Source: an uncultured Porphyromonadaceae bacterium (GTDB lineage: Bacteria; Bacteroidota; Bacteroidia; Bacteroidales; Muribaculaceae). Taken from it: DNA of 64,000 bases. The stretch spans positions 1 through 64,000 of the forward strand of contig CAMWQB010000003.1 of NCBI GenBank assembly GCA_947176295.1. Reading direction: 5' to 3'. The position numbers were made by a program, and so were the translations under genes. Position 1 is the stretch's first letter. Every line of letters starts with the position of its first letter. Under the pieces are notes generated by a model. That model saw nothing but the letters and a program-made list of their open reading frames with translations. It ran no database searches and had not been told where the DNA came from. Shown in pieces: positions 18,512-44,858 of the stretch.

Positions 18512-21445
18512 TCAGAGGCTGTTGAGGTAGTCGGGGAGCTTGTCCTCGCGGTCGAGGTTGAGTTTCTTGCGGAGTCGGTAGCGGGTCATCTCCACGGAGC
18601 GATAGGAGATGTTGAACAGCGGGGCCATATCCTTGGAGCTCAAGCCCATGCGGATATAACAGCAGACACGCAGTTCTGCTGGGGTGAGCGAGGGGTGGAG
18701 CTCGCGCAGGCGCTTGGTGAAGTCTTCGTAGACGGCGTCGAAGTTGCCAGTGAAGGTCTTCCAGTCGTCGTCGTGGCTGATGTTTTCCTGGATGAGAGCC
18801 TGGATTTTCGAGAGCTGAGCGTTGGTTTCGGCCGGGGATGATACTTCGAGGGTGCGCTGGATTTTGGTGAGACGCGTGGAGATATTCATGAGAATCTCGT
18901 TCTTGCGCACGACGTTCATAGTGATGTTGGAGAGTTCTCCGGCTTTGTGGCGGATGTCTTGTTCGAGCTGCTGGTTCTTGAGATCGGAAATTTCATTTTC
19001 TTTCCTGAGCGACTCCTCGGCAGCACGGGCGCGGAGATGCTCCATCTCCTCTTCCTTGCGGCGGGCGACCGCCAGAGAGTTGCGTTCGGAGATGTACGTA
19101 ACTACGCGGAATCCGGTGTAGAAGAGCAGGAGGGTGAGAATCGTGTAGACGACTTTGGCCCAGGGACTTCTGTACCACGGAGGGAGAATGGAGAATTTTA
19201 TTCCGTGCTCGTCGATGCTGTGTGTGGCGGAGTTGTAGGCGCGTAGGTGGAGGGTGTAGTCGCCTTCGTGGAGCTGGGTATATTCTTTAGACGTGGCATC
19301 GGAGTATGAGCTCCAGTCGTTGTCGTAGTTTTCGAGGTAGTGGCTGAAAACCATCTGTTTGGCTTCTGCCGAGTGGCCCGGTGCGGCAAATTCGAAGCGT
19401 AGGGAGTTGAGATCGTTGGAAATCGGAGGCACGGGGCTGTCCGCGGCTCCGAATGCGAGGTAAATCAGAGAGTCCTGATTGGCGTAAATCGCGCTCACGA
19501 GAGCTCCATGGCGGCTGGTGCTTCTGGGGGCGTTGAAGGCGCGGCGGGTGTCGAGCTCATAGAAGCCATCCTGGGCAGATGCTATCACGCGGGATTCGTC
19601 CACGAAGTTGAAGGAATCGAAGCCCGGGATGATGTAGGAACTCATGGGCGAGAAGGTGATGGAATCGACTGCATGAGAGCCGTCTGCGCGGGCGCGCATC
19701 ACGTAGACGTTGTCCGGTGTAACGCTCCAAACCTCTCCTCCCGGGCTGTGGTAGATATGTGGCGAAACCTGGCTTTGGAAGTAGGTGTTGAGGCCGGGGT
19801 GGGGCGCAAGGTGTTCGTTTGTAGAACCTTCGTCCTCGAGGTGGTAGTATCCTCGCGAGCAGCTGATGACGGGTTGCCCCTCGTGGAGAGCTACGGAGGT
19901 GTTCTCGTTTGTGGGCAGGCCGCGGGACGAATCGAAGAAGTCCACTTCGTCGAAACGGCGACGCGGAAGGTCGAGATGCAGGCGGTATACACCTTTGAGC
20001 CAATGGCATATCCAGATGGCTCCCTCCTTGTCGATGGTGAAAGAGCCGTTGATGTCGGAGAAGCCTGCGATGCGCCCGAGGTTGGTCCATTGCCCGTTGA
20101 CGTCTTCGAGGAGGATGAAGTTGTCGTATGTCGAGGCCAGTGCGTATCTTGAATCGGAGGGCAGTATGCGGGCGTCCCACGTTCCGGCTACGTTCTCGAC
20201 TGGCCGAAATCCGCTTCCGTTGTCGATGAAGAGGCCGGCGTCGGTGCACGCTGCGACCGAGCCTCCGAGGTTCACGATGTGCCACACCTGTCCGGGAATC
20301 AACCTGCGCGGAGTGTCGAGATTGAAATCGGAGCGGAAGGGGGTGGTGTAGAGGCCTTGATTGGTGCCGAGGTAAAGAGTGCCGTTGCTTAGGAGGGATG
20401 CATATCCGGCTCCGCAAGATCCTGAGCGAGAGAAGATAGAACGGAAGGGTGCGTCGTAGCACACATAGTCGATGCCATTGTCGAGCCCGCACCATATGTT
20501 GTGGTGGCTGTCGAATTTCACGGACAGAACTGTATTGTTCTGGAGGCCCGAATCCGTGTTAGAGTAGGTGGGTGGGGCGCTGCTCGAGAAGTTGCACACT
20601 ACGAGGCCGCCGTTGACGGTTCCGACAGCGACTTCCGAGCCCTGAGTATCGGCGCAGAAGGCCTGGGCTTCGCGCAGGAAGTCATCTAGTATGGTGGGCA
20701 TTGTGCGGAGGCCTGTAGTGCCGTAGAGGTAGAATCCGTCGAATTGCGTAACGATGAGCACTTCGTTTCCGAAGGGGCATATTGCGACTATCCTCTTTCC
20801 GTCGAGTATCCCTCTTGAATCGAGGGGGATGAATTGCCCGTCGCGGAGCTGGCAGAAGCCCTTGTCGCTGAGAGCGGCGTAGAAGACGCCGTTGATATAA
20901 GCAGAGGTGTTGATTTTCTCCCGGATGGAGGCTACAAAGTGTTCGCCCTTAGGGTTGTATGCAAATATGGCGTGGTCGCCCTGAAACCAAATCGTGTTCT
21001 CGCCCTCGTATATTTTCCAGATTTCGCCATAGCTTGTGGGGATGTTCGGGAAGCCTGAGGAGAGGGATTCGTAGTGCATCAGGCGGCGGCCGCTGTCGAA
21101 GGTAAAGTAGCCGAATTCCTCACTGCCGGCCACGTAGACGCGTCCGAGCTTACTGTCGGCCATGACGGCGCGGACTGTCGAAAAGTTCGGGAGGGTGTAG
21201 TTTCGCCAGCGGATGCCGTCGAAGGTGAGAAGCCCGTATTTGTTGCCGAAATACATCATCCCCTCGCTGTCTTCGTCGGAGGCCCAGTTCTGGGAGCCCC
21301 ATGAATAGACAGTGCGCGGATAGTTGCGCACGGTGGGGTGCGATGCAAGGGCGCCAGGCGCGCCCGAAAGCGCAACCATGACGCACACGACAACTATAAA
21401 TATTGTGCGGGAAATATAATTTTTGAGAATTAACATTGTGGCCAC
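18512..21445 (-). CDS. Transmembrane sensor-regulator: beta-propeller/Y_Y_Y periplasmic domain, TM, coiled coil, C-terminal LuxR-type HTH
   Basis: Propeller repeats, YYY-domain segment (AEAKQMVFSHYLENYDNDWSSYSDATSKEYTQLHEGDYTLHLRAYN), TM (VVYTILTLLLFYTGFRVV), HTH (LTPAELRVCCYIRMGLSSKDMAPLFNISYRSVEMTRYRLRKKL). No kinase or receiver domain seen. Confidence 0.87.
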   Translation of the reverse strand: MATMLILKNYISRTIFIVVVCVMVALSGAPGALASHPTVRNYPRTVYSWGSQNWASDEDSEGMMYFGNKYGLLTFDGIRWRNYTLPNFSTVRAVMADSKLGRVYVAGSEEFGYFTFDSGRRLMHYESLSSGFPNIPTSYGEIWKIYEGENTIWFQGDHAIFAYNPKGEHFVASIREKINTSAYINGVFYAALSDKGFCQLRDGQFIPLDSRGILDGKRIVAICPFGNEVLIVTQFDGFYLYGTTGLRTMPTILDDFLREAQAFCADTQGSEVAVGTVNGGLVVCNFSSSAPPTYSNTDSGLQNNTVLSVKFDSHHNIWCGLDNGIDYVCYDAPFRSIFSRSGSCGAGYASLLSNGTLYLGTNQGLYTTPFRSDFNLDTPRRLIPGQVWHIVNLGGSVAACTDAGLFIDNGSGFRPVENVAGTWDARILPSDSRYALASTYDNFILLEDVNGQWTNLGRIAGFSDINGSFTIDKEGAIWICHWLKGVYRLHLDLPRRRFDEVDFFDSSRGLPTNENTSVALHEGQPVISCSRGYYHLEDEGSTNEHLAPHPGLNTYFQSQVSPHIYHSPGGEVWSVTPDNVYVMRARADGSHAVDSITFSPMSSYIIPGFDSFNFVDESRVIASAQDGFYELDTRRAFNAPRSTSRHGALVSAIYANQDSLIYLAFGAADSPVPPISNDLNSLRFEFAAPGHSAEAKQMVFSHYLENYDNDWSSYSDATSKEYTQLHEGDYTLHLRAYNSATHSIDEHGIKFSILPPWYRSPWAKVVYTILTLLLFYTGFRVVTYISERNSLAVARRKEEEMEHLRARAAEESLRKENEISDLKNQQLEQDIRHKAGELSNITMNVVRKNEILMNISTRLTKIQRTLEVSSPAETNAQLSKIQALIQENISHDDDWKTFTGNFDAVYEDFTKRLRELHPSLTPAELRVCCYIRMGLSSKDMAPLFNISYRSVEMTRYRLRKKLNLDREDKLPDYLNSL

Positions 21446-21496
21446 GGGATGTTAAGTTGCATCCGCAATACAAAATTCGGAATTTTTATCGAGTTG

Positions 21497-21541
21497 TGTA
21501 ATGCATAAAAGTATGTTATAAAACATATTTTTTGTAATGCA
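21497..21541 (+). repeat. Direct repeat TGTAATGCA (21497-21505, 21533-21541) flanking a dyad
   Basis: Two identical 9-mers 36 bp apart surrounding TATGTTATAAAACATA. Confidence 0.6.
21512..21527. promoter_or_regulatory. 16-bp dyad TATGTTATAAAACATA upstream of susC-1
   Basis: TATGTT-N4-AACATA perfect half-sites; same architecture recurs upstream of susC-2. Confidence 0.55.
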
Positions 21542-21568: not shown

Positions 21569-21610
21569 TGTAGGTGTGTTGTAGGGTTGTTAAAATCGCG
21601 TTGTAGGGTT
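21569..21610 (+). promoter_or_regulatory. Phased TGTAGG repeats (candidate operator)
   Basis: TGTAGG at 21569, 21580 and 21602; the last two lie in perfect GTTGTAGGGTT 11-mers spaced 22 bp. Confidence 0.55.
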
Positions 21611-21651: not shown

Positions 21652-21659
21652 TAACTTTG
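21652..21659 (+). promoter_or_regulatory. -7 box TAACTTTG for susC-1
   Basis: TAnnTTTG match, with TTG at about 21626-21628. Confidence 0.6.
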
Positions 21660-21745: not shown

Positions 21746-24700
21746 ATGGCTCGATTAACTACACTCTTGTTCCTCATGCTCCTTGGCATCGCTCCGGTGT
21801 TTGCCCAAGGGCTGCGCGTAACGGGCACCGTTACCTCGGCCGAGGACGGAGAGCCACTGATTGGCGTTTCCGTGCGCGACCTCTCCAACCAGCGCAATGG
21901 CGTAACAACGGACATCGATGGTGTCTACACCATCACCGTGGCACCCGGCGCGAAATTAATGTTTACATACGTAGGCTGCGACCCCGTTGAAAAGACGGTA
22001 ACGGCCGCCGGCACTCTCGACATTGTCATGAAGGGCTCCAACGAGCTCGACGAAGTTGTGGTGGTCGGTTATGGTACAATGAAAAAGAGCGACCTGACGG
22101 GTTCGGTAACGACCGTGGGCGCTGATAAGCTGCAGAAGACGCCTGCCGCCTCACTTGCCAACGCCCTCCAGGGTCAGGCAGCCGGCGTTACGGTGAATTC
22201 GCTCAGCGGACGTCCCGGCGCAGGTGCCGAAGTCCGCATCCGCGGTGTCGGAACCATCAACGGCGCATCGCCCATCTATGTTGTGGACGGTGTGATCACG
22301 GACGACATCAACTTCCTTTCGCCTAACGACATCGAGAGCACCGAAATTCTCAAGGATGCATCCGCCACGGCCATCTACGGTTCGCGCGGTGCAAACGGTG
22401 TGATTCTCGTAACGACCAAGAGCGGCTCGCGCGACCAGCGCGCGCGCGTAACATTAGACGCTTACGTGGGGGTACAGCAGCGTTGGAAGAAGCTCGAAGT
22501 GATGAACGCCAAGGACTTCGCTGACACCTACGTTGCAATCAACGGCAACAAGTCGCAGAAGAAGATCTACGAAGAGCAGGGCTTCAATCGTTGGCTCTCC
22601 GTGTTCCAGGGCGTTGGGTCGTCGCCTTACTTCCCGACGGTTTATAATGAAGATACGAATCCGACCGGCTTTGACTACTCGAAGGTAGACACCGACTGGC
22701 AGGATGTTGTGTTCCGCGACGGTATGATTCAGAACTATCACCTGAGCATCGACGGCGGCGGCGACAAGTTCACCTACTCGATGAGCGGCAGCTGGTTCAA
22801 GCAGGAAGGCATCATCATCGGTTCCGACTACAGCCGCTTCACCGGCCGTCTGAACACGACTTATCAGGCACTTCCCTGGCTTAAGGTCGGCGAGAATATT
22901 TCGTTCATGGCATCCGTGGCACAGAACGCCTACGAGAGCGGCGACAACAGCGAAAGCGCCGGCGCCAACATCCTCTCGGCTGCCTTCGCAATGGCTCCCT
23001 GGGATCCCGTGCGCTATCCGGAGGGCTCGGTCAACCGAAACGGCAAGGACCTGAGCAACTGCATCTCCGCAGGTTCGAACTTCAAGAACGTAACCAACCC
23101 CCTGAGCATGGTCGAGTACTCCCACCCGAAGGTGCGCAACGAGCGCTGGGTAGGTAACGTATTCGCAGAAATCCAGCCCATAAAGCATCTTACCTTCCGT
23201 TCGAGCTACAGCTTCGACTACCGCATCACCACCGACAAGAGCTTCATGGACGCTTACGAGGTGAGCGCCTACGACCGTCGCGAAAAGAACTTCCTGTCGT
23301 CGTCGATGAGCCGCGCTTACTACTACAATGTGGACAACATCCTCACCTACGCCCGCTCCATCGGCAAGCACAACTTCTCGGTGATGGCCGGCCAGACGGT
23401 TGAAGAATACAGCTACTACAGCATCGGCAGCTCCGGCTCGATGATCCTCAACCCTGTTGAAAAGAACTGGTATCTTTCGCAGGTAACTGACGACTTCGCT
23501 CGCCCCGGCGACGGCGTGAGCCGCAACCGCCGCTTCTCGTGGCTGGGCCGTGTATTCTACAGCTTCAACGACCGCTATCTCGCCACGGTGAACTTCCGTG
23601 CCGACGGTTCGAGCAAGTTCCCCGAAAACTCCTGGGGTTACTTCCCCTCCTTCTCTCTGGCATGGCGTATCGACCAGGAGGACTTCATGAAGGACTTCAC
23701 CAACCTCTCCAACCTCAAGCTTCGCTTCGGCTGGGGTAAGGTCGGCAACGACAATATCTCGAACAACGCCTTCACGCTGAGTATGTTCAACAACGGTCCG
23801 ACCTTCGTGGACTACGTTCTCGGCGCAGACCAGGCTCTCGCAAACGGCGCAACGGTTCTGACGTGGGTGAACCGCGGCGGCCACTGGGAGAACACCGAGC
23901 AGCTGAGCCTCGGCATCGACTTCGGTTTCTGGAACAACAAGCTGACCGGTTCGGTGGACGGCTTCATCCGCAACACCAACGACATGCTCATGAGCGTAAA
24001 TGCTCCCGCACACGTGGGCAACCGCTACAGCGCAACGGCCAACGTCGGCAAGGTTCGCAACCAGGGCATCGAAATCAGCCTCGAGCACCGCAATACCGTA
24101 ACCCGCGACTTCTCCTACAGCGTAGGGGGCAACGTATCGTTCATCGACAACAAGCTGACGGCCCTCAACGGCGGTGCCCGCATCCCCACCAACTTCGCCA
24201 ACGTGCAGGTTGTGGACGAGGGTTATCCTCTCTACTACTTCTGGGGCTATGAATACGGCGGCGTATTCCGCAGCGACGAGGAAGCTCTCGAATACCTCCA
24301 CGGCTATACCGCCGAGAGCATTCCTTTCCATGCCGGCGACGCCAAGTATATCGACCACGACGGCAACGGCATGATCGACGACAACGACCGTATCGATCTC
24401 GGCTCGTCCATCCCCTGGCTGAACTACGGTATCAACCTCGGTGCATACTGGAAGGACTTCGACCTCCAGCTCTTCTTCCAGGGCGTAGGCGGCAACAAGA
24501 TTTACAACCAGATGCGTCATCGCCTCGAGAGCAGCGGCGCCACGTCGGTAATCTCGCCCGTGATGGCCGATGCATGGACGGTTGACAATCCCGACGGCTC
24601 CATCCCCAACCCCCGCAACTCCGTCAACTACTACGCAAGCTCCCGCTTCCTCGAGAAGGGCGACTACTTCCGCCTGAAGAACCTGCAGCTTGGCTATTCG

Positions 24701-24880
24701 CTGCCCCGCAAGCTCATCAGCCGCGCCGGCTTCGAAAACTGCCGCTTCTATATCCAGGGCTCGAACCTCTTCACCGTAACGAAGTATAAGGGCTTCGACC
24801 CCGAGGTGAACGGCGGAGTTGACTACGGCAACTATCCCCAGAGCCGCACCTTCCTTTTCGGTGTGAACATCACTTACTAA
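21746..24880 (+). CDS. SusC/RagA family TonB-linked outer membrane protein
   Basis: Carboxypeptidase-D-like N-domain, LDEVVVVGYGTMKKSDLTGSV, VRIRGVGTINGASPIYVVDGV, C-terminal PQSRTFLFGVNITY. Confidence 0.97.
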   Translation: MARLTTLLFLMLLGIAPVFAQGLRVTGTVTSAEDGEPLIGVSVRDLSNQRNGVTTDIDGVYTITVAPGAKLMFTYVGCDPVEKTVTAAGTLDIVMKGSNELDEVVVVGYGTMKKSDLTGSVTTVGADKLQKTPAASLANALQGQAAGVTVNSLSGRPGAGAEVRIRGVGTINGASPIYVVDGVITDDINFLSPNDIESTEILKDASATAIYGSRGANGVILVTTKSGSRDQRARVTLDAYVGVQQRWKKLEVMNAKDFADTYVAINGNKSQKKIYEEQGFNRWLSVFQGVGSSPYFPTVYNEDTNPTGFDYSKVDTDWQDVVFRDGMIQNYHLSIDGGGDKFTYSMSGSWFKQEGIIIGSDYSRFTGRLNTTYQALPWLKVGENISFMASVAQNAYESGDNSESAGANILSAAFAMAPWDPVRYPEGSVNRNGKDLSNCISAGSNFKNVTNPLSMVEYSHPKVRNERWVGNVFAEIQPIKHLTFRSSYSFDYRITTDKSFMDAYEVSAYDRREKNFLSSSMSRAYYYNVDNILTYARSIGKHNFSVMAGQTVEEYSYYSIGSSGSMILNPVEKNWYLSQVTDDFARPGDGVSRNRRFSWLGRVFYSFNDRYLATVNFRADGSSKFPENSWGYFPSFSLAWRIDQEDFMKDFTNLSNLKLRFGWGKVGNDNISNNAFTLSMFNNGPTFVDYVLGADQALANGATVLTWVNRGGHWENTEQLSLGIDFGFWNNKLTGSVDGFIRNTNDMLMSVNAPAHVGNRYSATANVGKVRNQGIEISLEHRNTVTRDFSYSVGGNVSFIDNKLTALNGGARIPTNFANVQVVDEGYPLYYFWGYEYGGVFRSDEEALEYLHGYTAESIPFHAGDAKYIDHDGNGMIDDNDRIDLGSSIPWLNYGINLGAYWKDFDLQLFFQGVGGNKIYNQMRHRLESSGATSVISPVMADAWTVDNPDGSIPNPRNSVNYYASSRFLEKGDYFRLKNLQLGYSLPRKLISRAGFENCRFYIQGSNLFTVTKYKGFDPEVNGGVDYGNYPQSRTFLFGVNITY

Positions 24881-24938
24881 TCTAAAGTAATTTCCAAAAG
24901 AAAAAGTGAAGTTTAAGCTTCAAACCAATCGAAAACAA

Positions 24939-26537
24939 ATGAAAAAGACTCTATATATCGCGGCAGCCGTGGCTCTGGGCATGGGTCTCAGCTCCTGCAA
25001 CAAATGGCTCGACGAGGATGCTCCCGGCAACACCCGTTTCGACGACTTCTATATCGGCGGCGCCGTGGCCATCCAGAATGTCAATGCCTGCTACGCTCCT
25101 CTCTGCTGGGAGTTCAACAGCTGCTACTTCCCCGAGTGGTATATCGGTGATATTGCCTCCGATGATGCCCTCAAGGGCGGCCAGAACCTGGCCGACGGCG
25201 GCGATGTCTATGATATCGATAACTTCAAGGTGAACGCCAACAACCCCATCCTCCTCAACTTCTACCGCGCAAAGTATCAGGGCATCGCTCGTTGCAACCT
25301 CGCGCTTCAGGAAGTTGCGAAGATGGAACCCGACGAGGTGATGAGCCAGAGCCGCAAGGATGCTCTCCTTGGTGAGGCATATTTCCTCCGCGCTTACTAC
25401 TACTTCCAGCTCGTGCGCGTCTTCGGCGGTGTGCCTCTGGTAGACTTCGTCATCGACTCGAGCGACCGCTGGATTCAGCCCCGCGCTACGGCAGAAGATG
25501 TGTACGACCACATCATCGCCGACCTGCTCCTTGCCGAAGAGGGTCTCTGGAACAAGAGCGAATATGCCCGCGAGGACCTCGGCCGCGCCACCAAGGGTGC
25601 CGCTCAGGCAATGCTCTGCAAGGTTTATCTCTACATGAAGGACTACAACAAGGCCTACGAATGGGGCAAGACCTTCGTGGACACGCAGTATAAGGGCGGC
25701 CAGTACAGCCTCTGCGGCGACTACGGCGACAACTTCACGATTGCCGGCGAAAACGGCCCCGAGAGTGTCTTCGAAATCCAGTATATGGCAGAGCCCACTT
25801 CCGACTACGGCGAAGGCTTCGGCTTCACCCGCGGCACCTTCTCGACCATTCTGTCGCGTCCGCGCCTCCCGAGCATGGGTGGCAACTCGGGCTGGGGCTT
25901 CGGCCATCCCACCCAGAACCTCTTCGACGAATTCGAAGCCGGCGACCCCCGTCGCGATCTCACCATCGGTCTTCCCCCCGAAAACGAAATCGGCATAGCC
26001 GAAGTGGACTATCTCGGCAACTCCTACTACAACCGCAAGATTTCCTACTGGGAACATGGCGACTTCCCCTCGCTTGACCATGCAACCCGCTCGCCCTTCA
26101 ACAACCGCCAGCTCCGCGCCTCCGACGCCCTTCTGCTCTTCGCAGAGGCAGCTCTCGAAAGCGGCAAGAGCCTGACGGATGCCAAGTGGGCTCTCGAAGA
26201 GGTGCGCAGTCGCGCCCGTCGCATGGTTTCGGATGCGAATGTTCTTCCCGCATTCCCCGGCTACCGCGGCTATGCCGATACGGCCGACGACCTCCGCAAG
26301 GCTATCCGCCACGAGCGTCGCGTGGAACTCGGAGGCGAAGGCCACCGCTGGTTCGACATCGTGCGCTGGGGCATCGGCAAGGAAATCTTCGATATGGCAA
26401 GCGGCAGCTATCCGCGCACCGAAACGGCAGAAGCTCAGGCCGAGATGGGCAATTTCATCGTGGGCCAGAGCGAGCTCTTCCCGATTCCCGCGGAGGAGAT
26501 GAACCTCAATCCTATGACGCAGAACCCCGGTTATTGA
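24939..26537 (+). CDS. SusD/RagB family surface lipoprotein
   Basis: Lipobox GLSSC followed by acidic NKWLDED; RAYYYFQLVRVFGGVPLV; FDIVRWG; C-terminal LFPIPAEEMNLNPMTQNPGY. Confidence 0.97.
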   Translation: MKKTLYIAAAVALGMGLSSCNKWLDEDAPGNTRFDDFYIGGAVAIQNVNACYAPLCWEFNSCYFPEWYIGDIASDDALKGGQNLADGGDVYDIDNFKVNANNPILLNFYRAKYQGIARCNLALQEVAKMEPDEVMSQSRKDALLGEAYFLRAYYYFQLVRVFGGVPLVDFVIDSSDRWIQPRATAEDVYDHIIADLLLAEEGLWNKSEYAREDLGRATKGAAQAMLCKVYLYMKDYNKAYEWGKTFVDTQYKGGQYSLCGDYGDNFTIAGENGPESVFEIQYMAEPTSDYGEGFGFTRGTFSTILSRPRLPSMGGNSGWGFGHPTQNLFDEFEAGDPRRDLTIGLPPENEIGIAEVDYLGNSYYNRKISYWEHGDFPSLDHATRSPFNNRQLRASDALLLFAEAALESGKSLTDAKWALEEVRSRARRMVSDANVLPAFPGYRGYADTADDLRKAIRHERRVELGGEGHRWFDIVRWGIGKEIFDMASGSYPRTETAEAQAEMGNFIVGQSELFPIPAEEMNLNPMTQNPGY

Positions 26538-27877: not shown

Positions 27878-29542
27878 ATGAAACTCAACAATACAAAGAC
27901 TGTGGCAGCCCTTATGGTGGCGTTTGCAGCCGCAGCCCTGCCTGCAGCCGCAGCCGACACTCAGAGCGGCTCGGGCGAAAGCGGGGGCTACAAGCTCGTG
28001 TGGCAGGACCTTTTCGACGGCACGGAGCTGAACCGCTCGCGCTGGAATATTGAAGTGAACGGCGACGGCGGCGGCAACAGCGAGCTGCAGTATTATTCCG
28101 ATCGCGAAAGCAACGTCCGTGTGGGAAAAGACGACAAGGGAAACGGTTGCCTTATCCTTACGGCTGTTCGCGAAAACTATATGGGTAAAAACTTCACATC
28201 GGGTCGCATCACCTCGAAGGGCCTCATTGCTTTCAAGCATGGCAAGGTGGAGGCTTCCATCAAGCTTCCTAAGACAGCCAACGGCCTGTGGCCGGCTTTC
28301 TGGATGATGGGCAATGATATCGATGCCGTGGGCTGGCCCCGTTGCGGCGAGATAGATATCTGTGAGTTCGGCCATCAGGACGCTTTCGGTCCCGGCACTC
28401 AGGAGCGCTACTTCAACGGCGCCTGCCATTGGGGCACCGGCTGGCCTCAGCCCAACTATGCTCGCGCGCATACTCACGACTACAGCCTGCAGGACGGAGA
28501 GTTCCATCTCTTCACGTGCATCTGGGACGAGAATACGATTTCGATGTATTGCGACCTCGATAAGTACCCGAATCAGGAGCCCTACTACTCGATGTCGATT
28601 ACCGACAATCAACCCGGGGTGTCGGATTATCCCGGCAACTATTTCCACAAGGAAAATTTCATCCTATTCAATCTTGCAGTGGGAGGAACTTTCCCCGGCA
28701 TCTACAACGCCTCCGGCATCACGGCCCTCAACAGCAGCAATGGCAACCAGGCGTCGATGTATGTGAACTATGTGAAAATCTACCAAAAGGGCACATCCGA
28801 CGAGAGCCACAGCTTTGCCACGGCCGGCGACGTCGAGACCACCGACCCCAATCCTCCCACGCCTCCCACACCCTCGGGCGTGCCCGGAGCTCCCGCTCCC
28901 GTCCACGATGCTCAAAACGTGAAAAGTTTCTATTCCGACGCATACCATTCTATCGTTCCGGAAATGTTCGTGGGCTCATGGGGCCAGTCGACCGCAACGG
29001 AGAAGGTGGATCTGGACGGTAACGAAGCCCTGTGCATGACCAACTTCAACTACATGGGCCTGCAGTTCTCGGGCAGCGACGCCGTGGTGGATGTGAAAGA
29101 GATGAAAAATATCCATATCGACCTGTATTCCACAAGAGATATGGACATCAACATCTATCCTATCTCGCTTTTTCCTACTTACGACTCGGACAAGTCCACG
29201 AAGCATCTCCCGGCCGACGAGTGGCAGTCGTTCGACATTCCTATGACGGAGTTTCCGGGGGTGAAGTTCGAGAGCCTCGGCCAGTTTAAATTCGACGTGG
29301 CTTCGCAGGCGGCTTCGCGTGCGTCGTCCGACGAACATAAAATCTACATCGACAACCTGTATGCCTGGGCTCCCGGGACGACAGGTGTGGACGCCGCCGA
29401 GATTGCGGATCCGGCAGCCGGAGGCATGGTCTATGACCTCTTTGGCCGGACCGTGCGCGAGGGTACGGATCTTTCCGGACTGAGTGCGGGGGTCTATGTC
29501 GTGAAGCATGGCAATATCACCAAGAAGGTGCTTGTGAAGTGA
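27878..29542 (+). CDS. GH16 laminarinase-type endo-beta-1,3-glucanase with C-terminal beta-sandwich and T9SS-type CTD
   Basis: Catalytic motif CGEIDICEFGH, KLVWQDLFDG, WPAFWMMGN; Pro-rich linker then about 150-aa accessory domain; C-term VYDLFGRTVREGTDLSGLSAGVYVVKHGNITKKVLVK. Confidence 0.92.
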   Translation: MKLNNTKTVAALMVAFAAAALPAAAADTQSGSGESGGYKLVWQDLFDGTELNRSRWNIEVNGDGGGNSELQYYSDRESNVRVGKDDKGNGCLILTAVRENYMGKNFTSGRITSKGLIAFKHGKVEASIKLPKTANGLWPAFWMMGNDIDAVGWPRCGEIDICEFGHQDAFGPGTQERYFNGACHWGTGWPQPNYARAHTHDYSLQDGEFHLFTCIWDENTISMYCDLDKYPNQEPYYSMSITDNQPGVSDYPGNYFHKENFILFNLAVGGTFPGIYNASGITALNSSNGNQASMYVNYVKIYQKGTSDESHSFATAGDVETTDPNPPTPPTPSGVPGAPAPVHDAQNVKSFYSDAYHSIVPEMFVGSWGQSTATEKVDLDGNEALCMTNFNYMGLQFSGSDAVVDVKEMKNIHIDLYSTRDMDINIYPISLFPTYDSDKSTKHLPADEWQSFDIPMTEFPGVKFESLGQFKFDVASQAASRASSDEHKIYIDNLYAWAPGTTGVDAAEIADPAAGGMVYDLFGRTVREGTDLSGLSAGVYVVKHGNITKKVLVK

Positions 29543-29574
29543 GCAAGACGAATTTTTACGATTGAACCGAACTA

Positions 29575-30756
29575 ATGAAGAATAAGATATTTAAAGCTAC
29601 CGCCATCGCAGCGATGCTCGCCGCATCGACCGCTGTATGGGCCGTGGAGCCTCAGGTCGGCTCGGGCGAGACGAACGGCTATAAGCTTGTGTGGCAGGAC
29701 CTTTTTGATGACGAGGAATTGAACCCGCTTCGCTGGCATGTCGAAAAGAACGGTGGCGGCGGCGGAAACAATGAGTTGCAATATTATGTCGACGATTCCG
29801 ACAATGCTATAATCGGCAAGGACGAGAAAGGCAACAGCTGCCTTATACTCACGGCCAAGCGCGAAGCCCGCTGGGGTAAGGCCTTTACCTCGGGGCGCGT
29901 GAATTCCAAAAATATGATAGCCGTGAAGCACGGCAAGGTGGAAGCGGCTATCCGCCTTCCCAAGACTGCCAATGGCTTGTGGCCGGCATTCTGGATGATG
30001 GGCAACGACTACGACAGGGTGAAGTGGCCCAAGTGCGGCGAAATCGACATCATGGAGTTTGGGCATTCCGCAGGTTTCAACGGGCGCCAGGAATCTTATT
30101 TCAACGGCGCATGCCATTGGGGCACGTCGATGCCACAGCCCAACTATGCCAAGGCTCACAACCATGAATATAGCCTTCAAGACGGCGAATTCCATCTCTA
30201 CACCCTTATCTGGGACGAGAAGACAATAGAAATGTATTGCGATCTCGACAAATATCCCACCAAGGCTCCCTATTACAAGATGGGCATAGAGGGCGAGAGG
30301 CCAGGAGAGGCAAATTGGTGCGGCAATTATTTCCATAAGGAATTCTTTATCCTTTTCAATCTCGCTGTCGGGGGCAACTTCCCGGGCATATATGATGCGA
30401 ATCGAATCACGGCTCTGAACGACGAAAACGGACAGAAGGCGTCGATGTACATAAACTATGTGAAGATATACCAGAAGGGCACGCCCGATGAAAGCCAATA
30501 CTTTGTCGATCCGGGCGACGATCTTTCGGCCGCCGGAATAGAGGACGTGAGCGTGGAAGATGCGCCTTCCATCTCCTTCGGTCCGTCGGCTGCGAGCTGC
30601 TCCGGGGCCAAGGCTATGGAGGTGATAGACCTCTGCGGCCGGTGCGTAGGTCGCGGAGCCGACAGCGTGGCCCTCGGCGCCCTTCCGGCCGGAGCCTATA
30701 TCGTGCGGGCTCTCCTGAGCGACGGCCGCAGCATCACGGCTAAGATTGCAATCTGA
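29575..30756 (+). CDS. GH16 laminarinase-type endo-beta-1,3-glucanase with short C-terminal sorting-like domain
   Basis: CGEIDIMEFGHS catalytic motif; strong similarity to preceding GH16. Confidence 0.93.
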   Translation: MKNKIFKATAIAAMLAASTAVWAVEPQVGSGETNGYKLVWQDLFDDEELNPLRWHVEKNGGGGGNNELQYYVDDSDNAIIGKDEKGNSCLILTAKREARWGKAFTSGRVNSKNMIAVKHGKVEAAIRLPKTANGLWPAFWMMGNDYDRVKWPKCGEIDIMEFGHSAGFNGRQESYFNGACHWGTSMPQPNYAKAHNHEYSLQDGEFHLYTLIWDEKTIEMYCDLDKYPTKAPYYKMGIEGERPGEANWCGNYFHKEFFILFNLAVGGNFPGIYDANRITALNDENGQKASMYINYVKIYQKGTPDESQYFVDPGDDLSAAGIEDVSVEDAPSISFGPSAASCSGAKAMEVIDLCGRCVGRGADSVALGALPAGAYIVRALLSDGRSITAKIAI

Positions 30757-30828
30757 GGCCTCCCTCATTAAGAAACGAGACTATACCAATTCCATACAAG
30801 CTATACAATCATTACCACCTAAGCGACA

Positions 30829-33096
30829 ATGAATAAAAAACTCTTTCCGTCGATAGCATTCGGCCTTCTGGCAACGATCGTAGCCGGTGGCGCTATCAGC
30901 TCCTGCACCAAGAGTGCGGCAAAGGGCTCGGACAATGCCGACATTGAGGCACGCGTCGAGGCCCTGCTTTCGCAGATGACAATAGATGAAAAAATCGGAC
31001 AGCTGAACCAGCTGACGGGCGTGGGCTGCACTCCCGAGCGCGTGGCTGAAATCCGCTCCGGCTCCGTGGGTTCGCTGCTCAACGAGGTAGACCCCGACAC
31101 GGTGAACGCCCTCCAGCGCGAGGCTGTCGAGAACAGCCGTCTGGGTATTCCTTTGATTATTGCCCGCGACGTGATCCACGGCTTCAAGACCATCTTCCCC
31201 ATTCCGCTCGGGCAGGCTGCGACATGGGATGCATCGATCGTGGAGGAAGGCGCCCGAGTGGCCGCCGACGAGGCTTCCTCGGCAGGTGTCCGCTGGACAT
31301 TCTCGCCTATGGTGGACGTGAGCCGAGATGCCCGCTGGGGCCGCATTGCCGAGAGCTTCGGCGAAGATCCCTATCTCGCATCCAAGCTGGGTGTGGCCAT
31401 GGTGAACGGCTATCAGGGCGACGATCTCTCGAAGCCCAACACGATGGCTGCCTGCGTGAAGCATTTCGTGGGCTATGGCGCAAGCGAAGGCGGCAAGGAC
31501 TACAATACGACCTGGATTCCCGAGCCGCACCTGCGCGACGTGTATCTGCCTCCTTTCAAGGCTTGCGCCGATGCAGGGGCTGCTACATTCATGTGCTCCT
31601 TCAACGACATCAACGGCATGCCCACCAACGCCGACACCCATCTGATGCGCGACATCCTTCGCGGCGAATGGGGCTGGGACGGCGTGATGTGCAGCGACTG
31701 GAGCTCGATCCAGCAGATGGTGCCGCAAGGCTACTGCAAGGACCTCGAAGCTGCCACGGAGGCTGCTGCCAAGGCCGGCGTGGATGTGGACATGATGAGC
31801 TATGCATATGTTTCGAGTCTCAAGAACCTCGTGGAGCAGGGTAAGGTGAGCGAAAAGGTGCTCGACGACCTCGTGCGCAATGTCCTCCGGCTCAAGTTCC
31901 GCCTGGGCCTCTTCGAAAATCCCTACGTCGACACGGCCAACGCTCGCCGCTTCTTCACGGAAAGCAATCTCGCCGCAGCGCAGCATGCAGCCGAGCAGAG
32001 CGCTATCCTCCTGAAGAACGATGGCGGTGTGCTGCCCCTGAAGGAGGGTGTGCGCATAGCTGTTACCGGCCCGATGATGGATGCCAAGCACGACCAGAAC
32101 GGCACGTGGTGTTTCGACCTCGAAAAGGACAAGACCGTAACGGTGCTCGAAGCTCTCAACGATATGTACGGCGAAGGCAAGATCGTGGCCGCTCCCGGCC
32201 TGACCTACAGCCGCGACACTAACGCTGCGGGGATTGCCGCCGCAGTTGCCAAGGCCCGCACGGCCGATGTGATTCTCTTCGTCTGCGGCGAAGAAGCCGT
32301 GCTCTCGGGCGAGGCTCACTGCCGCACGGATCTCACGCTTCCCGGCGCACAGAAGGAGATGCTGCGTCAGCTCAAGGCCACGGGAAAGCCTGTGGTGTCG
32401 GTAGTGATGACCGGTCGCCCCATGGCCATCAAGGACGTGGTGGACAACTCCGACGCTATCCTCTACTGCTTCCATCCCGGAACGATGGGTGGCCCTGCCA
32501 TCGCCAATGTGCTGAGCGGCAAGGTGAATCCTTCGGGCCACCTGCCTGCAAGCATGCCTAAGGCTTCGGCGCAGGCTCCTCTCTACTACTCTCACAAGAA
32601 CACGGGCCGTCCCGCCGAGGGAATGATGCTCATGGATGAAGTGCCTCTCGAGGCCGAGCAGACGTCGACAGGCTGCACGAGCTTCTATATGGACTGCGGC
32701 GACGGGCCCCTCTTCCCCTTCGGTTACGGCCTGAGCTATACCGACTTCAACTATGGTCCGGTGGTGCTCTCGTCGGAGAAGATGGATGCCAAGAACGGCA
32801 CCATCACGGCAAGCTGCGAAATCGAAAACACCGGTAGCGTAAAGGGTGCGACTGTGGCTCAGCTCTATATCCGCGATCTCGTGGGTTCGCTCTGCCGCCC
32901 CGTCAAGGAGCTTAAGGGCTATGAGAAGATCGAGCTCGCTCCCGGCGAAAAGCGCACGGTAAGCTTCACGCTCAATGCCGACGACCTGGCCTTCTACAAT
33001 GCAGCCAACGAGCGCGTAACGGAACCCGGCGACTTCCAGCTCTGGATCGCTGCCGACAGCGCAAGCGGCGAGGCTAAGGGTTTTGTTGTCGAATGA
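30829..33096 (+). CDS. GH3 beta-glucosidase lipoprotein (BglX-like)
   Basis: Lipobox AISSC; EKIGQLNQLTG, RWGRIAESFGEDPYL, KHFVGYGASEGGKDYN, GVMCSDWSSIQQM, C-terminal FnIII-like domain. Confidence 0.95.
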   Translation: MNKKLFPSIAFGLLATIVAGGAISSCTKSAAKGSDNADIEARVEALLSQMTIDEKIGQLNQLTGVGCTPERVAEIRSGSVGSLLNEVDPDTVNALQREAVENSRLGIPLIIARDVIHGFKTIFPIPLGQAATWDASIVEEGARVAADEASSAGVRWTFSPMVDVSRDARWGRIAESFGEDPYLASKLGVAMVNGYQGDDLSKPNTMAACVKHFVGYGASEGGKDYNTTWIPEPHLRDVYLPPFKACADAGAATFMCSFNDINGMPTNADTHLMRDILRGEWGWDGVMCSDWSSIQQMVPQGYCKDLEAATEAAAKAGVDVDMMSYAYVSSLKNLVEQGKVSEKVLDDLVRNVLRLKFRLGLFENPYVDTANARRFFTESNLAAAQHAAEQSAILLKNDGGVLPLKEGVRIAVTGPMMDAKHDQNGTWCFDLEKDKTVTVLEALNDMYGEGKIVAAPGLTYSRDTNAAGIAAAVAKARTADVILFVCGEEAVLSGEAHCRTDLTLPGAQKEMLRQLKATGKPVVSVVMTGRPMAIKDVVDNSDAILYCFHPGTMGGPAIANVLSGKVNPSGHLPASMPKASAQAPLYYSHKNTGRPAEGMMLMDEVPLEAEQTSTGCTSFYMDCGDGPLFPFGYGLSYTDFNYGPVVLSSEKMDAKNGTITASCEIENTGSVKGATVAQLYIRDLVGSLCRPVKELKGYEKIELAPGEKRTVSFTLNADDLAFYNAANERVTEPGDFQLWIAADSASGEAKGFVVE

Positions 33097-33147
33097 TTCT
33101 TACACACACTCTCTCTTATAAACTTAGTTTCCTTAGATTTAAAGACT

Positions 33148-34617
33148 ATGAATTTAAGACATATTCTCCTTGGCGCGGGGCTTGCCCTGCTGGCATGCTC
33201 CGGCGCCGAGGCGCGAAGCGCCAAGCGTGGCGTGTGCGCCAAATTCACATACGCTCAGGAAGTTGAACTCATCCAGGAAGGATCCTGCTGGTGGTATAAC
33301 TGGGGCAATGCTGCCAACCAGGGCTATCAGTACGAGGTAGAAAACTTCAAGAGTACGATGGACTTCTGTCCGATGACGTGGAGCGCCAACTATAGCGCGG
33401 AGAACATCCGCAACTATTGCAAGGCACACCCCGAGGTGAAATACCTCCTGGGCTTCAACGAGCCGAACTTCACTAATCAGGCGAATATGACTCCGGCTCA
33501 GGCTGCTGCTGAATGGCCCAAGGTTCAGGCTCTTGCAAAGGAGCTCGGCCTGAAGCTTGTGGCTCCGGCCCTCAACTACTCGGCTAACCCCCAGTATAGC
33601 ACCCCCGCGAAGTGGATGGATGAATTCGTGAGCCTCGTAGGCCTCGACGCCTTCGACTTCACTGCTCTCCACAACTATGGCGGCTTCGGGCTTATGAAGT
33701 CGACGGCAGAGGAGTTCTACGCCAAGTATGGCAAGCAGGTATGGATCACCGAATGGTGCTACTGGCCCGGCGGCGCCGGCAACGTGTATGTAGCGCCCGA
33801 AGCTCAGATTTCGTCCATGATCGAATGCGTGGAATGGCTGGAGCAGAGCGAAGCTATCTACCGCTACTCGTGGTTCATGGCTCAGGGCCCTTACAATCAG
33901 AGCAACAAGCCCAACTATGGTCTGCTGGCCAATACAGTCGTGGACAAGAAAGTGCAGGTATCGCTCACGGAGCAGGGCAAGGTCTACACCCACATGTGGG
34001 AATTCGACCCTGAGTATTATCACACGCCCGGCACAATGATCGCAGCCACGGACTACCATGCCCGCACGCTGGCCGCTCTTGGCTCAACAAACTACGCAGA
34101 CGCTCCGAAACCCCTCGAAATCACTGCATTCAATGGCGGTGCAACGCTCGACTATCAGTTCGACGTGCCCGAGGCAGGCGAATACAACATCGAAGTTTTC
34201 GCTTCCGGTAAGGGCGAGCCCGAGCGTTTCGACCCCCGCATCAACTTCGTCGGCGTAGGAGCCGATGGCAAAGAGACGGGTGCGCTGTGCGCCGCACAGA
34301 CCCTCTCGCTTTCCGGCAAGGACGACGTATATGCTCCACATGTCTTCAAGGTAACCCTTCCTGCAGGCAAGCAGACAATCCGCATGAAGGACAATGCTCC
34401 CTACCAGCCCTCGGGCATCCGCATAGCAGCCCTGCGTATGAGCTCCGTGAGCGGAATCGATGCCGTGAAGATCGAGGCAGAGGATGCTACGCTCCCGGTT
34501 GATGTATTCAACACTCAGGGAATGCGCGTACGAAGCTCTGTAGCGCCCTCTGAGGCCACGCAAGGACTGCCCGCTGGTATCTACCTTGTTGGCGGCCGCA
34601 AAGTGCTTGTAAAATGA
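33148..34617 (+). CDS. GH128-like (Asl1-like) glycoside hydrolase with C-terminal carbohydrate-binding-like and sorting domains
   Basis: YLLGFNEPNFTNQANMTPAQAAAEWPKVQALAKELGLKLVAPAL ... QVWITEWCYWPGGAGN; C-term VDVFNTQGMRVRSSVAPSEATQGLPAGIYLVGGRKVLVK. Confidence 0.87.
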   Translation: MNLRHILLGAGLALLACSGAEARSAKRGVCAKFTYAQEVELIQEGSCWWYNWGNAANQGYQYEVENFKSTMDFCPMTWSANYSAENIRNYCKAHPEVKYLLGFNEPNFTNQANMTPAQAAAEWPKVQALAKELGLKLVAPALNYSANPQYSTPAKWMDEFVSLVGLDAFDFTALHNYGGFGLMKSTAEEFYAKYGKQVWITEWCYWPGGAGNVYVAPEAQISSMIECVEWLEQSEAIYRYSWFMAQGPYNQSNKPNYGLLANTVVDKKVQVSLTEQGKVYTHMWEFDPEYYHTPGTMIAATDYHARTLAALGSTNYADAPKPLEITAFNGGATLDYQFDVPEAGEYNIEVFASGKGEPERFDPRINFVGVGADGKETGALCAAQTLSLSGKDDVYAPHVFKVTLPAGKQTIRMKDNAPYQPSGIRIAALRMSSVSGIDAVKIEAEDATLPVDVFNTQGMRVRSSVAPSEATQGLPAGIYLVGGRKVLVK

Positions 34618-41350: not shown

Positions 41351-41366
41351 TATGTTATTTAACATA
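41351..41366. promoter_or_regulatory. 16-bp dyad TATGTTATTTAACATA upstream of susC-2
   Basis: Perfect TATGTT-N4-AACATA (extends to ATATGTTATTTAACATAT); matches site upstream of susC-1. Confidence 0.6.
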
Positions 41367-41438: not shown

Positions 41439-41446
41439 TAATTTTG
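41439..41446 (+). promoter_or_regulatory. -7 box TAATTTTG for susC-2
   Basis: TAnnTTTG match about 92 bp upstream of ATG. Confidence 0.65.
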
Positions 41447-41537: not shown

Positions 41538-44500
41538 ATGAAAAAGCTGTTTCTATTATTTCTGACAGTGCTTTCGATCAGCCTGTGTGCGTCGGCGCAG
41601 ACGCGTACGGTTACGGGTACTGTCTACGACGCCCAGTCGAACGAGGAGCTCGTGGGCGTTTCGGTGACAGCCGGCCAAGGCTACGGTGCGGTAACGGACA
41701 TCGACGGACACTTCTCGATTTCCGTGCCCTCCTCGACGAAGGCCCTGAGCTTCACTTATGTGGGTTACAAGACCCAGGACGTGAACATCCCCGCCAACGG
41801 GAAGATGAGCGTCTACCTCAGTCCCTCGGCAGAGATGCTCGATGAGGTAATTGCCGTTGCATACGGCGAACAGAAGCGTTCGGCCTTCACGGGTTCGGCC
41901 GCAGTCGTAGGAGCTGCTACGATCGAGAAAACACAGAGCTCCAACGTGCTCGACGCTCTCTCCGGACGTGTTGCCGGCCTTCAGCTGTCGAACGCATCGG
42001 GTGCTCCCGGTTCGGGCAACCCCTCGATCCGTATCCGTGGTTTCTCCTCCGTTAACTCGGGTATGAACGACCCCCTTATCATCGTGGACGGCGCGCCCTT
42101 CACCGGCGACATCACCACGCTGAACAACAACGATATCGAGAGCATGACCGTCCTGAAGGACGCTGCCTCCAACGCTCTTTACGGTGCCCGCGGCGCCAAC
42201 GGTGTGATTCTTATCACCACTAAGCGTGCAAAGCTCGGTGAGGCTCAGGTTGTAGTAGATGCAAAGTGGGGTGCCAACACCCGCGCCACGCAGGACTACG
42301 ACTACATCACCGATCCCGGTATGTTCTACGAGACCTACTATAAGGCTCTTTACAACTACGCAAGCTTCCCCGAAGCAGCCGGTGGTCTGGGCTACAACAG
42401 CGAGATGGCAAACTACTGGGCTAACCAGAACATGATCAACTCCACCACCTACGGCCTCGGATATAATGTATTTACGGTTCCTGCCGGCCAGATGCTCATC
42501 GGCCAGAACGGCAAGATCAACCCCAACGCAACTCTTGGCAATGTGGTAAGCTACAAGGGCGCCGAATACTTCCTTACTCCCGACAGCTGGATGGATGCCA
42601 CCTATAAGAGCAGCCTCCGTCAGGAATACAACATCAGCATCGCCCAGGGCACGGAGAAGGGCAACTTCCGCGCATCTGTAGGCTACCTCGACAATCAGGG
42701 TATCATCACGGCCAAGACCGACTACCGCCGCTTCACCGGCCGTCTGACCGCAGACGTTCAGGCCAAGGAATGGCTCAAGGTTGGCGCTAACGTTAACTAC
42801 ACCCACTACTCGGCACACGCAATGTCGGGCGACGAGGGCGCTTCCAACTCGACGAGCAACGTATTTGCCGCCGCAACGGAAATCGCTCCGATCTATCCTC
42901 TTTACATGCGCGACGCCAACGGCAATATCATGGTTGACGCCAACGGCCTCCAGCGCTTCGACTATGGCGACGGCGCCAACGCGGGTCTCGTGCGTCCCAT
43001 CTTCCCCGACTCCAACGCCCTGAATGCCGCAATGCTCGACATCAGCGACAGCAACGGCAACCTCTTCAACGCTACGGGCTACTTTGAAGTACGCTTCCTC
43101 AAGGACTTCCGCTTCACTTCGAACAACACGGTATACGTGAACGAGCGTCGTTCGAGCTCCGTAACCAACCCCTTCTACGGCGCATACGCCGGCCAGAACG
43201 GTATGGTAGGCAAGAGCCACACCCGCCAGTTCAACCAGAGCTACCAGCAGCTCCTCAACTGGAGCCACCAGTTCGGCAAGCATAATGCTGCCGCTCTCGC
43301 CGGTCACGAATACAACCTTCAGCAGGGCTATGCTCTCTCCGGCAACAAGAGCAACATGTTCGATCCCTGGAACACGGAACTTAACAACGCCATCATCGAT
43401 GGTTCCTCGTCGTCCTACACTACGGAATATAACAACGAAGGTTGGATTTTCCGCGGCCTCTACGACTACGACGCAAAATATTTCGGCAATGTATCCTATC
43501 GTCGCGACGCTTCTTCGAAGTTCCATCCCAAGCACCGCTGGGGTAACTTCTGGAGCCTCGGTGCATCATGGATCCTTACCAAGGAAGACTTCATGGAGTC
43601 TACCCGCGATTGGCTGAACTCCTTGAAGGTGAAGGTATCCTACGGTGAGCAGGGTAACGATAATATCGGCAACTTCCTCTACACCAACGTTTACTCCCTT
43701 GCCAACGTCGACGGCTATCCCGCAGCAGTGCCCGAAACGATGGGTAATGAAAAGATTTCGTGGGAAAAGGGCGGCAACTTCAACGCCGGCGTAGAATTCT
43801 CGATGTTCAACAACCGCTTCTCCGGTGGCGTCGACGGTTTCTACCGCAAGACAACGGACATGCTCATGTTCTTCTCGCTTCCCTCGTCCTTCGGTTACAC
43901 GGGCTACTACCGCAACGTAGGCGACATGATGAACGCCGGCGTCGAACTCGAACTTTCCGGTATCGCAGTGCAGACCCGCGACTTCACGTGGACCGTGAAC
44001 TTCAACATGACCTGGTATAAGAACCGCATCCTCTATCTCGATCCCGAGACCAAGAACGGCGCTGCTTATCGCATCGAAGCAGACAAGATGAGCGAAGGCC
44101 GGAAGTTCGACGGTTACGCCAGCGGCAACTACTTCTATGGCGAAGGCCTCCCGATGTACACCTACTTCAATCAGAAGTATGCAGGTGTGGACCCCAACAC
44201 AGGTAAGGCTCTTTACTATATGCGCGAACGCTATACGAAGGAGGACTTCGAGAACGGTGTAATCACCGATCCCGACCTCATCGGTACAGAAACCAATTCC
44301 GGTAAGGTTGTAACGACCGATGTCTATGGCAATGCCGACCGTTTTGCCGTTGGTTCGTGTCTTGCACCTGTCTACGGCGGTCTCAGCACGACGCTCGAAT
44401 ACAAAGGCTTCGACCTGACTGTGAACTGCAACTATCAGATTGGCGGTCTTGTATATGACTCGGGTTATGCCCGTCTGATGGGTTCGCCTTACTCCACCGG

Positions 44501-44858
44501 CGGTAAGGGCGACAACATCCATGCCGACATTCTCAATGCGTGGACGCCCGATAACCGTACAACCGACATTCCCCGCTACTTCTATAGCGACCAGAGCTCC
44601 AATTCCGAATCGTCGCGCTTCCTGACGGATGCCAGCTACTTCTCTATCGAGAACATCAACTTCGGCTACACCCTGCCCGGCGCCATCAGCCGCAAGATGT
44701 ATCTGCAGAAGCTGCGCTTCTATTTCGCATGCGAAAACGTGTGGGTATGGAGCAAGCGTCAGGGTCTCGATCCTCGCCAGAGCTTCACCGGTGGCAACAA
44801 CAACACATATTATGCACCCATCCGCACGATTTCCGGCGGCTTATCGGTAACATTCTAA
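41538..44858 (+). CDS. SusC/RagA family TonB-linked outer membrane protein (second locus)
   Basis: TVTGTVYDAQSNEELVGVSV; LDEVIAVAYGEQKRSAFTGSAAVV; IRIRGFSSVNSGMNDPLIIVDGAPF. Confidence 0.97.
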   Translation: MKKLFLLFLTVLSISLCASAQTRTVTGTVYDAQSNEELVGVSVTAGQGYGAVTDIDGHFSISVPSSTKALSFTYVGYKTQDVNIPANGKMSVYLSPSAEMLDEVIAVAYGEQKRSAFTGSAAVVGAATIEKTQSSNVLDALSGRVAGLQLSNASGAPGSGNPSIRIRGFSSVNSGMNDPLIIVDGAPFTGDITTLNNNDIESMTVLKDAASNALYGARGANGVILITTKRAKLGEAQVVVDAKWGANTRATQDYDYITDPGMFYETYYKALYNYASFPEAAGGLGYNSEMANYWANQNMINSTTYGLGYNVFTVPAGQMLIGQNGKINPNATLGNVVSYKGAEYFLTPDSWMDATYKSSLRQEYNISIAQGTEKGNFRASVGYLDNQGIITAKTDYRRFTGRLTADVQAKEWLKVGANVNYTHYSAHAMSGDEGASNSTSNVFAAATEIAPIYPLYMRDANGNIMVDANGLQRFDYGDGANAGLVRPIFPDSNALNAAMLDISDSNGNLFNATGYFEVRFLKDFRFTSNNTVYVNERRSSSVTNPFYGAYAGQNGMVGKSHTRQFNQSYQQLLNWSHQFGKHNAAALAGHEYNLQQGYALSGNKSNMFDPWNTELNNAIIDGSSSSYTTEYNNEGWIFRGLYDYDAKYFGNVSYRRDASSKFHPKHRWGNFWSLGASWILTKEDFMESTRDWLNSLKVKVSYGEQGNDNIGNFLYTNVYSLANVDGYPAAVPETMGNEKISWEKGGNFNAGVEFSMFNNRFSGGVDGFYRKTTDMLMFFSLPSSFGYTGYYRNVGDMMNAGVELELSGIAVQTRDFTWTVNFNMTWYKNRILYLDPETKNGAAYRIEADKMSEGRKFDGYASGNYFYGEGLPMYTYFNQKYAGVDPNTGKALYYMRERYTKEDFENGVITDPDLIGTETNSGKVVTTDVYGNADRFAVGSCLAPVYGGLSTTLEYKGFDLTVNCNYQIGGLVYDSGYARLMGSPYSTGGKGDNIHADILNAWTPDNRTTDIPRYFYSDQSSNSESSRFLTDASYFSIENINFGYTLPGAISRKMYLQKLRFYFACENVWVWSKRQGLDPRQSFTGGNNNTYYAPIRTISGGLSVTF

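Follow-up and report, generated by a model that had tools for sequence, protein, structure and literature searches.

The two palindromes upstream of the two susC genes of the window, a 64,000-nucleotide stretch of DNA from an uncultured Porphyromonadaceae bacterium that was analyzed as a whole, are, judging from their sequence, very probably bound by Cur, the known master regulator of sugar starvation. The site 1 dyad TATGTTATAAAACATA (21512–21527, no strand assigned) lies between susC-1 and a divergent sensor-regulator gene, here termed REG, and the site 2 dyad TATGTTATTTAACATA (41351–41366, likewise without strand) lies upstream of susC-2. A first-pass annotation had placed both dyads at these positions, where they were indeed found, and had taken them for global carbohydrate-response sites of the Crp/Cur type; at the level of sequence this assignment holds, on the strength of the consensus, the regulon, the enrichment and the co-occurrence with a Cur ortholog that are described below.

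The motif published for the global Crp-like regulator BT4338 (Cur, MalR), which was obtained in a comparative study, is wwwTATGTTnTAnAACATAwww (PMC3878776), and the B. thetaiotaomicron fusA2 site TATGTTACATAACATT has been proven by ChIP plus deletion (PMC6989115). The core of site 1 matches the published TATGTTnTAnAACATA exactly, while that of site 2 deviates by one mismatch, a central TT for TA. The flanks, given as www on each side in the consensus, are aag/ttt at site 1 and aaa/tcc at site 2, a partial fit. The dyads of this genome have in common with Bacteroides Cur operators the palindrome itself, its half-site spacing, the hallmark target fusA2 and an autoregulatory position ahead of the regulator's own gene; they differ in that they are also found at susC promoters and at the sensor-regulator gene of a polysaccharide utilization locus (PUL). 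The CRP sites of E. coli are likewise palindromic Crp-family operators that serve an activator used under poor carbon supply, but their half-site is TGTGA, compared with TATGTT here. The identity between Bacteroides Cur and Crp is about 18%, and no cAMP has been detected in the phylum (PMC10294740).

A scan of the window allowing up to three mismatches returned four matches, which correspond to the two palindromes, each read on both strands, whereas 0.31 matches were expected from shuffled sequence. Genome counts were obtained by pattern search, with the reversed pattern of identical composition as a control. The exact TATGTTN4AACATA occurs five times in the organism's own genome, a 2.23 Mb draft of 138 contigs, and three of these occurrences adjoin susC genes; the reversed pattern is absent. 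The motif also exceeds the control in 49 genomes of the same genus (251 versus 11) and in 87 genomes of the same family (432 versus 21). Based on simple ORF calls, 73 of 75 exact dyads taken from 12 same-genus genomes are intergenic, and the genes that recur next to these 75 sites are susC (10), EF-G2 (7), the sensor-regulator gene divergent from susC-1 (5) and GH13 (4). The enrichment at susC genes (10/75) has a p value of 9e-10 when eight susC genes per genome are assumed, which is the count for this genome and an optimistic denominator, as relatives have more. Three of the eight full-length susC genes in the own genome possess an exact dyad, and nothing better than three mismatches was found at the remaining five.

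These counts bear on the idea that both sites are functionless palindromes arising by chance in AT-rich intergenic DNA, which the poor conservation of site 2 would fit. We rejected this origin as very improbable, because a pattern of the same composition is rare when reversed (none in the own genome, few in the genus) and because site 1 is conserved among orthologs.

Four PF00027 proteins are encoded in the genome (contigs C60, C13, C111 and C123). The C60 protein is a Cur-like member of the Crp family with a length of 232 aa; it matches PDB 2gau, a Crp homolog from Porphyromonas gingivalis that is independent of cAMP, over its full length and shares 57% identity with the B. fragilis member. 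We consider it the putative Cur ortholog, an assignment drawn from its 2gau-type family, from the autoregulatory dyad before its gene and from the fusA2 dyad rather than from a direct comparison with the BT4338 sequence. Its gene is preceded by the dyad TATGTCGTAAAACATA, which has one mismatch and is located 54 bp before the ATG. A dyad with at most one mismatch was present upstream of cur in 9 of 30 relatives, compared with 0 of 30 for the control, and dyads also precede cur in other families, in Bacteroides as the variant form TGTGCTnTAnAACACA. These dyads are in agreement with the autoregulatory site that has been reported for BT4338 orthologs (PMC3878776). The EF-G2 (fusA2) gene, which is divergent to lon, carries the dyad TATGTTTGAAAACATA 110 bp before its ATG, and the distance from the dyad centre to the first T of the TAAATTG box is 41 bp in all six same-genus promoters; in named Bacteroidales it is about 40 or 53 bp. 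Further dyads of the own genome are located upstream of a GH13 amylase gene and of a third susC gene.

Several dyads outside the window were recorded alongside. Upstream of fusA2 (loci of Bacteroides and Phocaeicola), the dyad in Bacteroides is joined by a second, overlapping one, TGTTTAGTAACA, 13 bp further on; the centre of the latter is ~40 bp from the -7 box, as in the genus of the window. In the nearest relative (G038, contig C83), a second EF-G2 gene carries a pair of perfect dyads, 26 bp apart, which together make up a long inverted repeat (TATGTTGTGTAACATA ... TATGTTACACAACATA). A Cur-type dyad also recurs ~97 bp upstream of a gene that encodes a protein of 85-86 aa (MTKTI[ST]FNELR...; in the own genome C6:6959-6974), and in two genomes a dyad precedes a gene resembling that of nucleoside diphosphate kinase (MEQTF[VI]I...; in the own genome C32:10924-10939).

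With four PF00027 proteins in one genome, and given that motifs of the Crp family can overlap, the dyad could be bound by the C13, C111 or C123 protein in place of the Cur ortholog. We judged a binder of this kind unlikely. The dyad precedes the gene of the C60 protein itself as well as fusA2, as is the case for Bacteroides Cur, and the C111 protein resembles PDB 1zyb, a member of another branch. In addition, dyad abundance follows the C60 protein, the one protein of the four whose distribution was compared: among 57 further families of the same order, 75 dyads were counted in the 29 families with a Cur ortholog and 15 in the 28 families without (p=2e-5), while the reversed control showed no difference (28 and 31, respectively).

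Site 1 is situated in a divergent intergenic region. On one side is REG (18512–21436, minus strand, ATG at 21436), whose product comprises a periplasmic propeller/Y_Y_Y domain, a membrane segment and a C-terminal LuxR-type HTH (Pfam Y_Y_Y, E=3e-6; GerE, E=3.5e-4, and Reg_prop, E=0.002, both below the Pfam cut-off). The first base of its -7-like box GAATTTTG (21471–21478, minus strand) is 41 bp from the dyad centre. On the other side, all on the plus strand, are two direct repeats of TGTAGGGT at 21580–21587 and 21602–21609, which are 60 and 82 bp from the dyad centre and thus have a 22-bp period, the -7 box TAACTTTG of susC-1 (21652–21659, first base 132 bp from the dyad centre), susC-1 (21746–24880; TIGR04056, 912 bits), susD-1 (24906–26537) and the Pfam-assigned PUL-1 enzymes GH16, GH16, GH3 and Glyco_hydro_cc (27878–34617). 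For PUL-1 we infer a probable role in beta-glucan degradation, and the TGTAGGGT repeats are a candidate, and probable, operator of the PUL's own regulator.

The conservation anticipated for sites upstream of orthologous genes was observed at site 1 and is patchy at site 2. The site 1 dyad is retained in all seven susC-1 orthologs for which upstream sequence is available, five times exactly and twice with one change. It forms, together with the TGTAGGGT repeats (+60, +82) and the -7 box of susC (+132), the conserved islands of an otherwise divergent region; the repeat at +60 is present in 7/7 orthologs, and the one at +82 is exact or near-exact in most. The distance from the dyad centre to the -7 box of susC is exactly 132 bp in all seven, despite indels in the flanking stretches, and that to the -7-like box of REG is 41-43 bp, also in all seven, with TAnnTTTG being exact in four. 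These spacings were noticed upon inspection and had not been predicted beforehand. Measured from the dyad edge, the distances to the susC -7 boxes are 124 and 72 bp, so that the initial estimates of about 125 and 73 bp were about right. The description of the first dyad as an element upstream of susC-1 is correct as to its presence there, but the dyad is nearer to the promoter of REG than to that of susC-1. Since this proximal promoter is spaced at 41-43 bp, similar to the 41 bp measured at fusA2, REG may be the main target of site 1. A distance of 132 bp is too far for the classical contact of Crp with RNA polymerase; the invariance of this spacing suggests that the susC-1 promoter matters too.

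At site 2, the first base of the susC-2 -7 box TAATTTTG (41439–41446, plus strand) is 80 bp from the dyad centre, and the box is followed by susC-2 (41538–44858; TIGR04056, 752 bits) and susD-2 (44874–46544), both on the plus strand. In the nearest relative, whose SusC is 84% identical, the dyad is degraded to two mismatches. Of 30 SusC-2 relatives, the window's own gene counted among them, six have it with no more than one mismatch, and it is absent in many orthologs. Four of the eight SusC-2 relatives that keep a dyad have it 79-81 bp from the -7 box. Around susC-2, Pfam revealed no recognisable carbohydrate enzyme, only the susC/susD pair and a gene for a 679-aa protein. To call the two PULs unrelated in enzyme content, as the first-pass annotation did, is hence generous: PUL-1 has its two GH16 enzymes, GH3 and Glyco_hydro_cc, and the susC-2 locus shows no recognisable enzymes to compare with them. 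The 679-aa protein (46644–48683, downstream of susC-2/susD-2) has no Pfam family, and housekeeping genes come next.

The geometry of site 1 leaves room for a simpler arrangement in which the dyad serves REG and nothing else, and Cur controls susC-1 indirectly, via REG. We regard this as a serious contender, although we lean towards a role at both promoters. It draws on the short distance between the dyad centre and the REG box in 7/7 orthologs, compared with 132 bp to the susC-1 box and 41 bp at fusA2, and it is compatible with the indirect PUL control by BT4338 in B. thetaiotaomicron (PMC6989115, PMC10294740). It accounts less readily for the susC spacing, which is fixed in all seven orthologs while that of REG varies by 2 bp, and for susC-2, where the opposite strand has no TAnnTTTG box within 100 bp of the dyad.

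The reading that we favor, and hold to be likely, is that both dyads are Cur operators, with site 1 most likely activating REG and in addition aiding susC-1, and with site 2 aiding susC-2. From the computed dyad, enrichment, regulon, conservation and spacing, we infer that Cur binds, in which direction it acts and what the repeats do, as follows. Upon carbon limitation or exhaustion of preferred sugars, Cur would become active, as is established in Bacteroides, and the active C60 dimer would bind both dyads. At site 1, Cur would most likely activate REG from a spacing near that of fusA2 and would also help the susC-1 promoter from its fixed upstream position, jointly with the PUL's own regulator, which probably occupies the TGTAGGGT repeats between the dyad and the susC-1 promoter. 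At site 2, where the dyad is centred 80 bp before the -7 box, Cur would co-activate susC-2. ChIP in B. thetaiotaomicron did not detect BT4338 at the promoters of polysaccharide utilization genes, roc and BT4299 among them (PMC6989115, PMC10294740); direct sites in the window would thus reflect a difference in wiring, not in the regulator.

A further class of dyads was found after the fact. The centres of ten exact dyads of the genus are located 15-16 bp from a TAnnTTTGC box, and every one of the box-adjacent dyads whose surroundings were read lies ahead of a conserved element of 70 nt, which Rfam identifies as FopS. FopS RNAs (RF04319) are sRNAs that block the translation of susC mRNAs; their published description gives them a canonical sigma-ABfr promoter, calls their regulator "unknown" and does not bring up Cur, and they are ~3-fold lower on high-mannose glycan than on glucose (PMC11697453). 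In 13 genomes of the order, a dyad with at most one mismatch lies upstream of 20 of 69 FopS copies, which represent most of the Rfam FopS matches of these genomes, compared with 0 for the reversed pattern. Two positions can be distinguished. In position A, which occurs mostly in CATGG-type copies, is spread over many genera and was found in all seven named genomes as well as in the window's genus, the dyad centre is 26-31 bp upstream of the start of the sRNA match; in position B, seen in many CATAG-type copies from Bacteroides and Phocaeicola, this distance is exactly 60 bp. The own genome harbors a FopS gene with a Cur-type dyad on contig C61 (870-973). In genome G028, three FopS copies are arranged in tandem, with a dyad at each. 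FopS promoters resemble the window sites in sharing the dyad, here in many copies and at two fixed positions, and differ from them in being part of a family of RNA genes instead of a PUL.

The location of position A between the -33 and -7 boxes suggests repression, and that of position B, 60 bp upstream, suggests activation. Because the same dyad is found at uptake-gene and FopS promoters, one regulator may serve both layers. We tentatively propose, without yet favoring it, that Cur is the missing transcriptional regulator of FopS and exerts two-level control over glycan transporters, through activation of PUL regulators and susC on the one hand and through FopS levels on the other. A literature search retrieved no paper linking Cur and FopS. 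An unidentified Cur target that acts on an mRNA leader has been postulated (PMC10294740). In such a two-level scheme, Cur would block the position-A class of FopS genes and activate the position-B class, signs that are taken from position only, and sugar shortage would lift the block that FopS imposes on susC translation at the time when susC transcription is turned on.

The susC mRNAs of the window itself are unconvincing as FopS targets, with predicted duplexes of -13.1 kcal/mol for susC-1 and -15.9 kcal/mol for susC-2 against a background mean of -13.0 kcal/mol (sd 3.0). As a separate observation, the start of the Glyco_hydro_cc gene (33148; region 33108–33177) is predicted to pair with the seed of the own-genome FopS at -23.8 kcal/mol; it was the only one of ~30 starts beyond the 1% background quantile of -21.7 kcal/mol.

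The dyads of the window provide sequence evidence that, in a gut lineage outside Bacteroides, Cur acts on PUL promoters directly, whereas its action on the PULs of B. thetaiotaomicron was found to be indirect. If Cur also governs FopS, this would offer a testable answer to the question of what regulates these sRNAs, which was left open in their description (PMC11697453), and likewise to how Cur affects the PULs of B. thetaiotaomicron without binding to their promoters.
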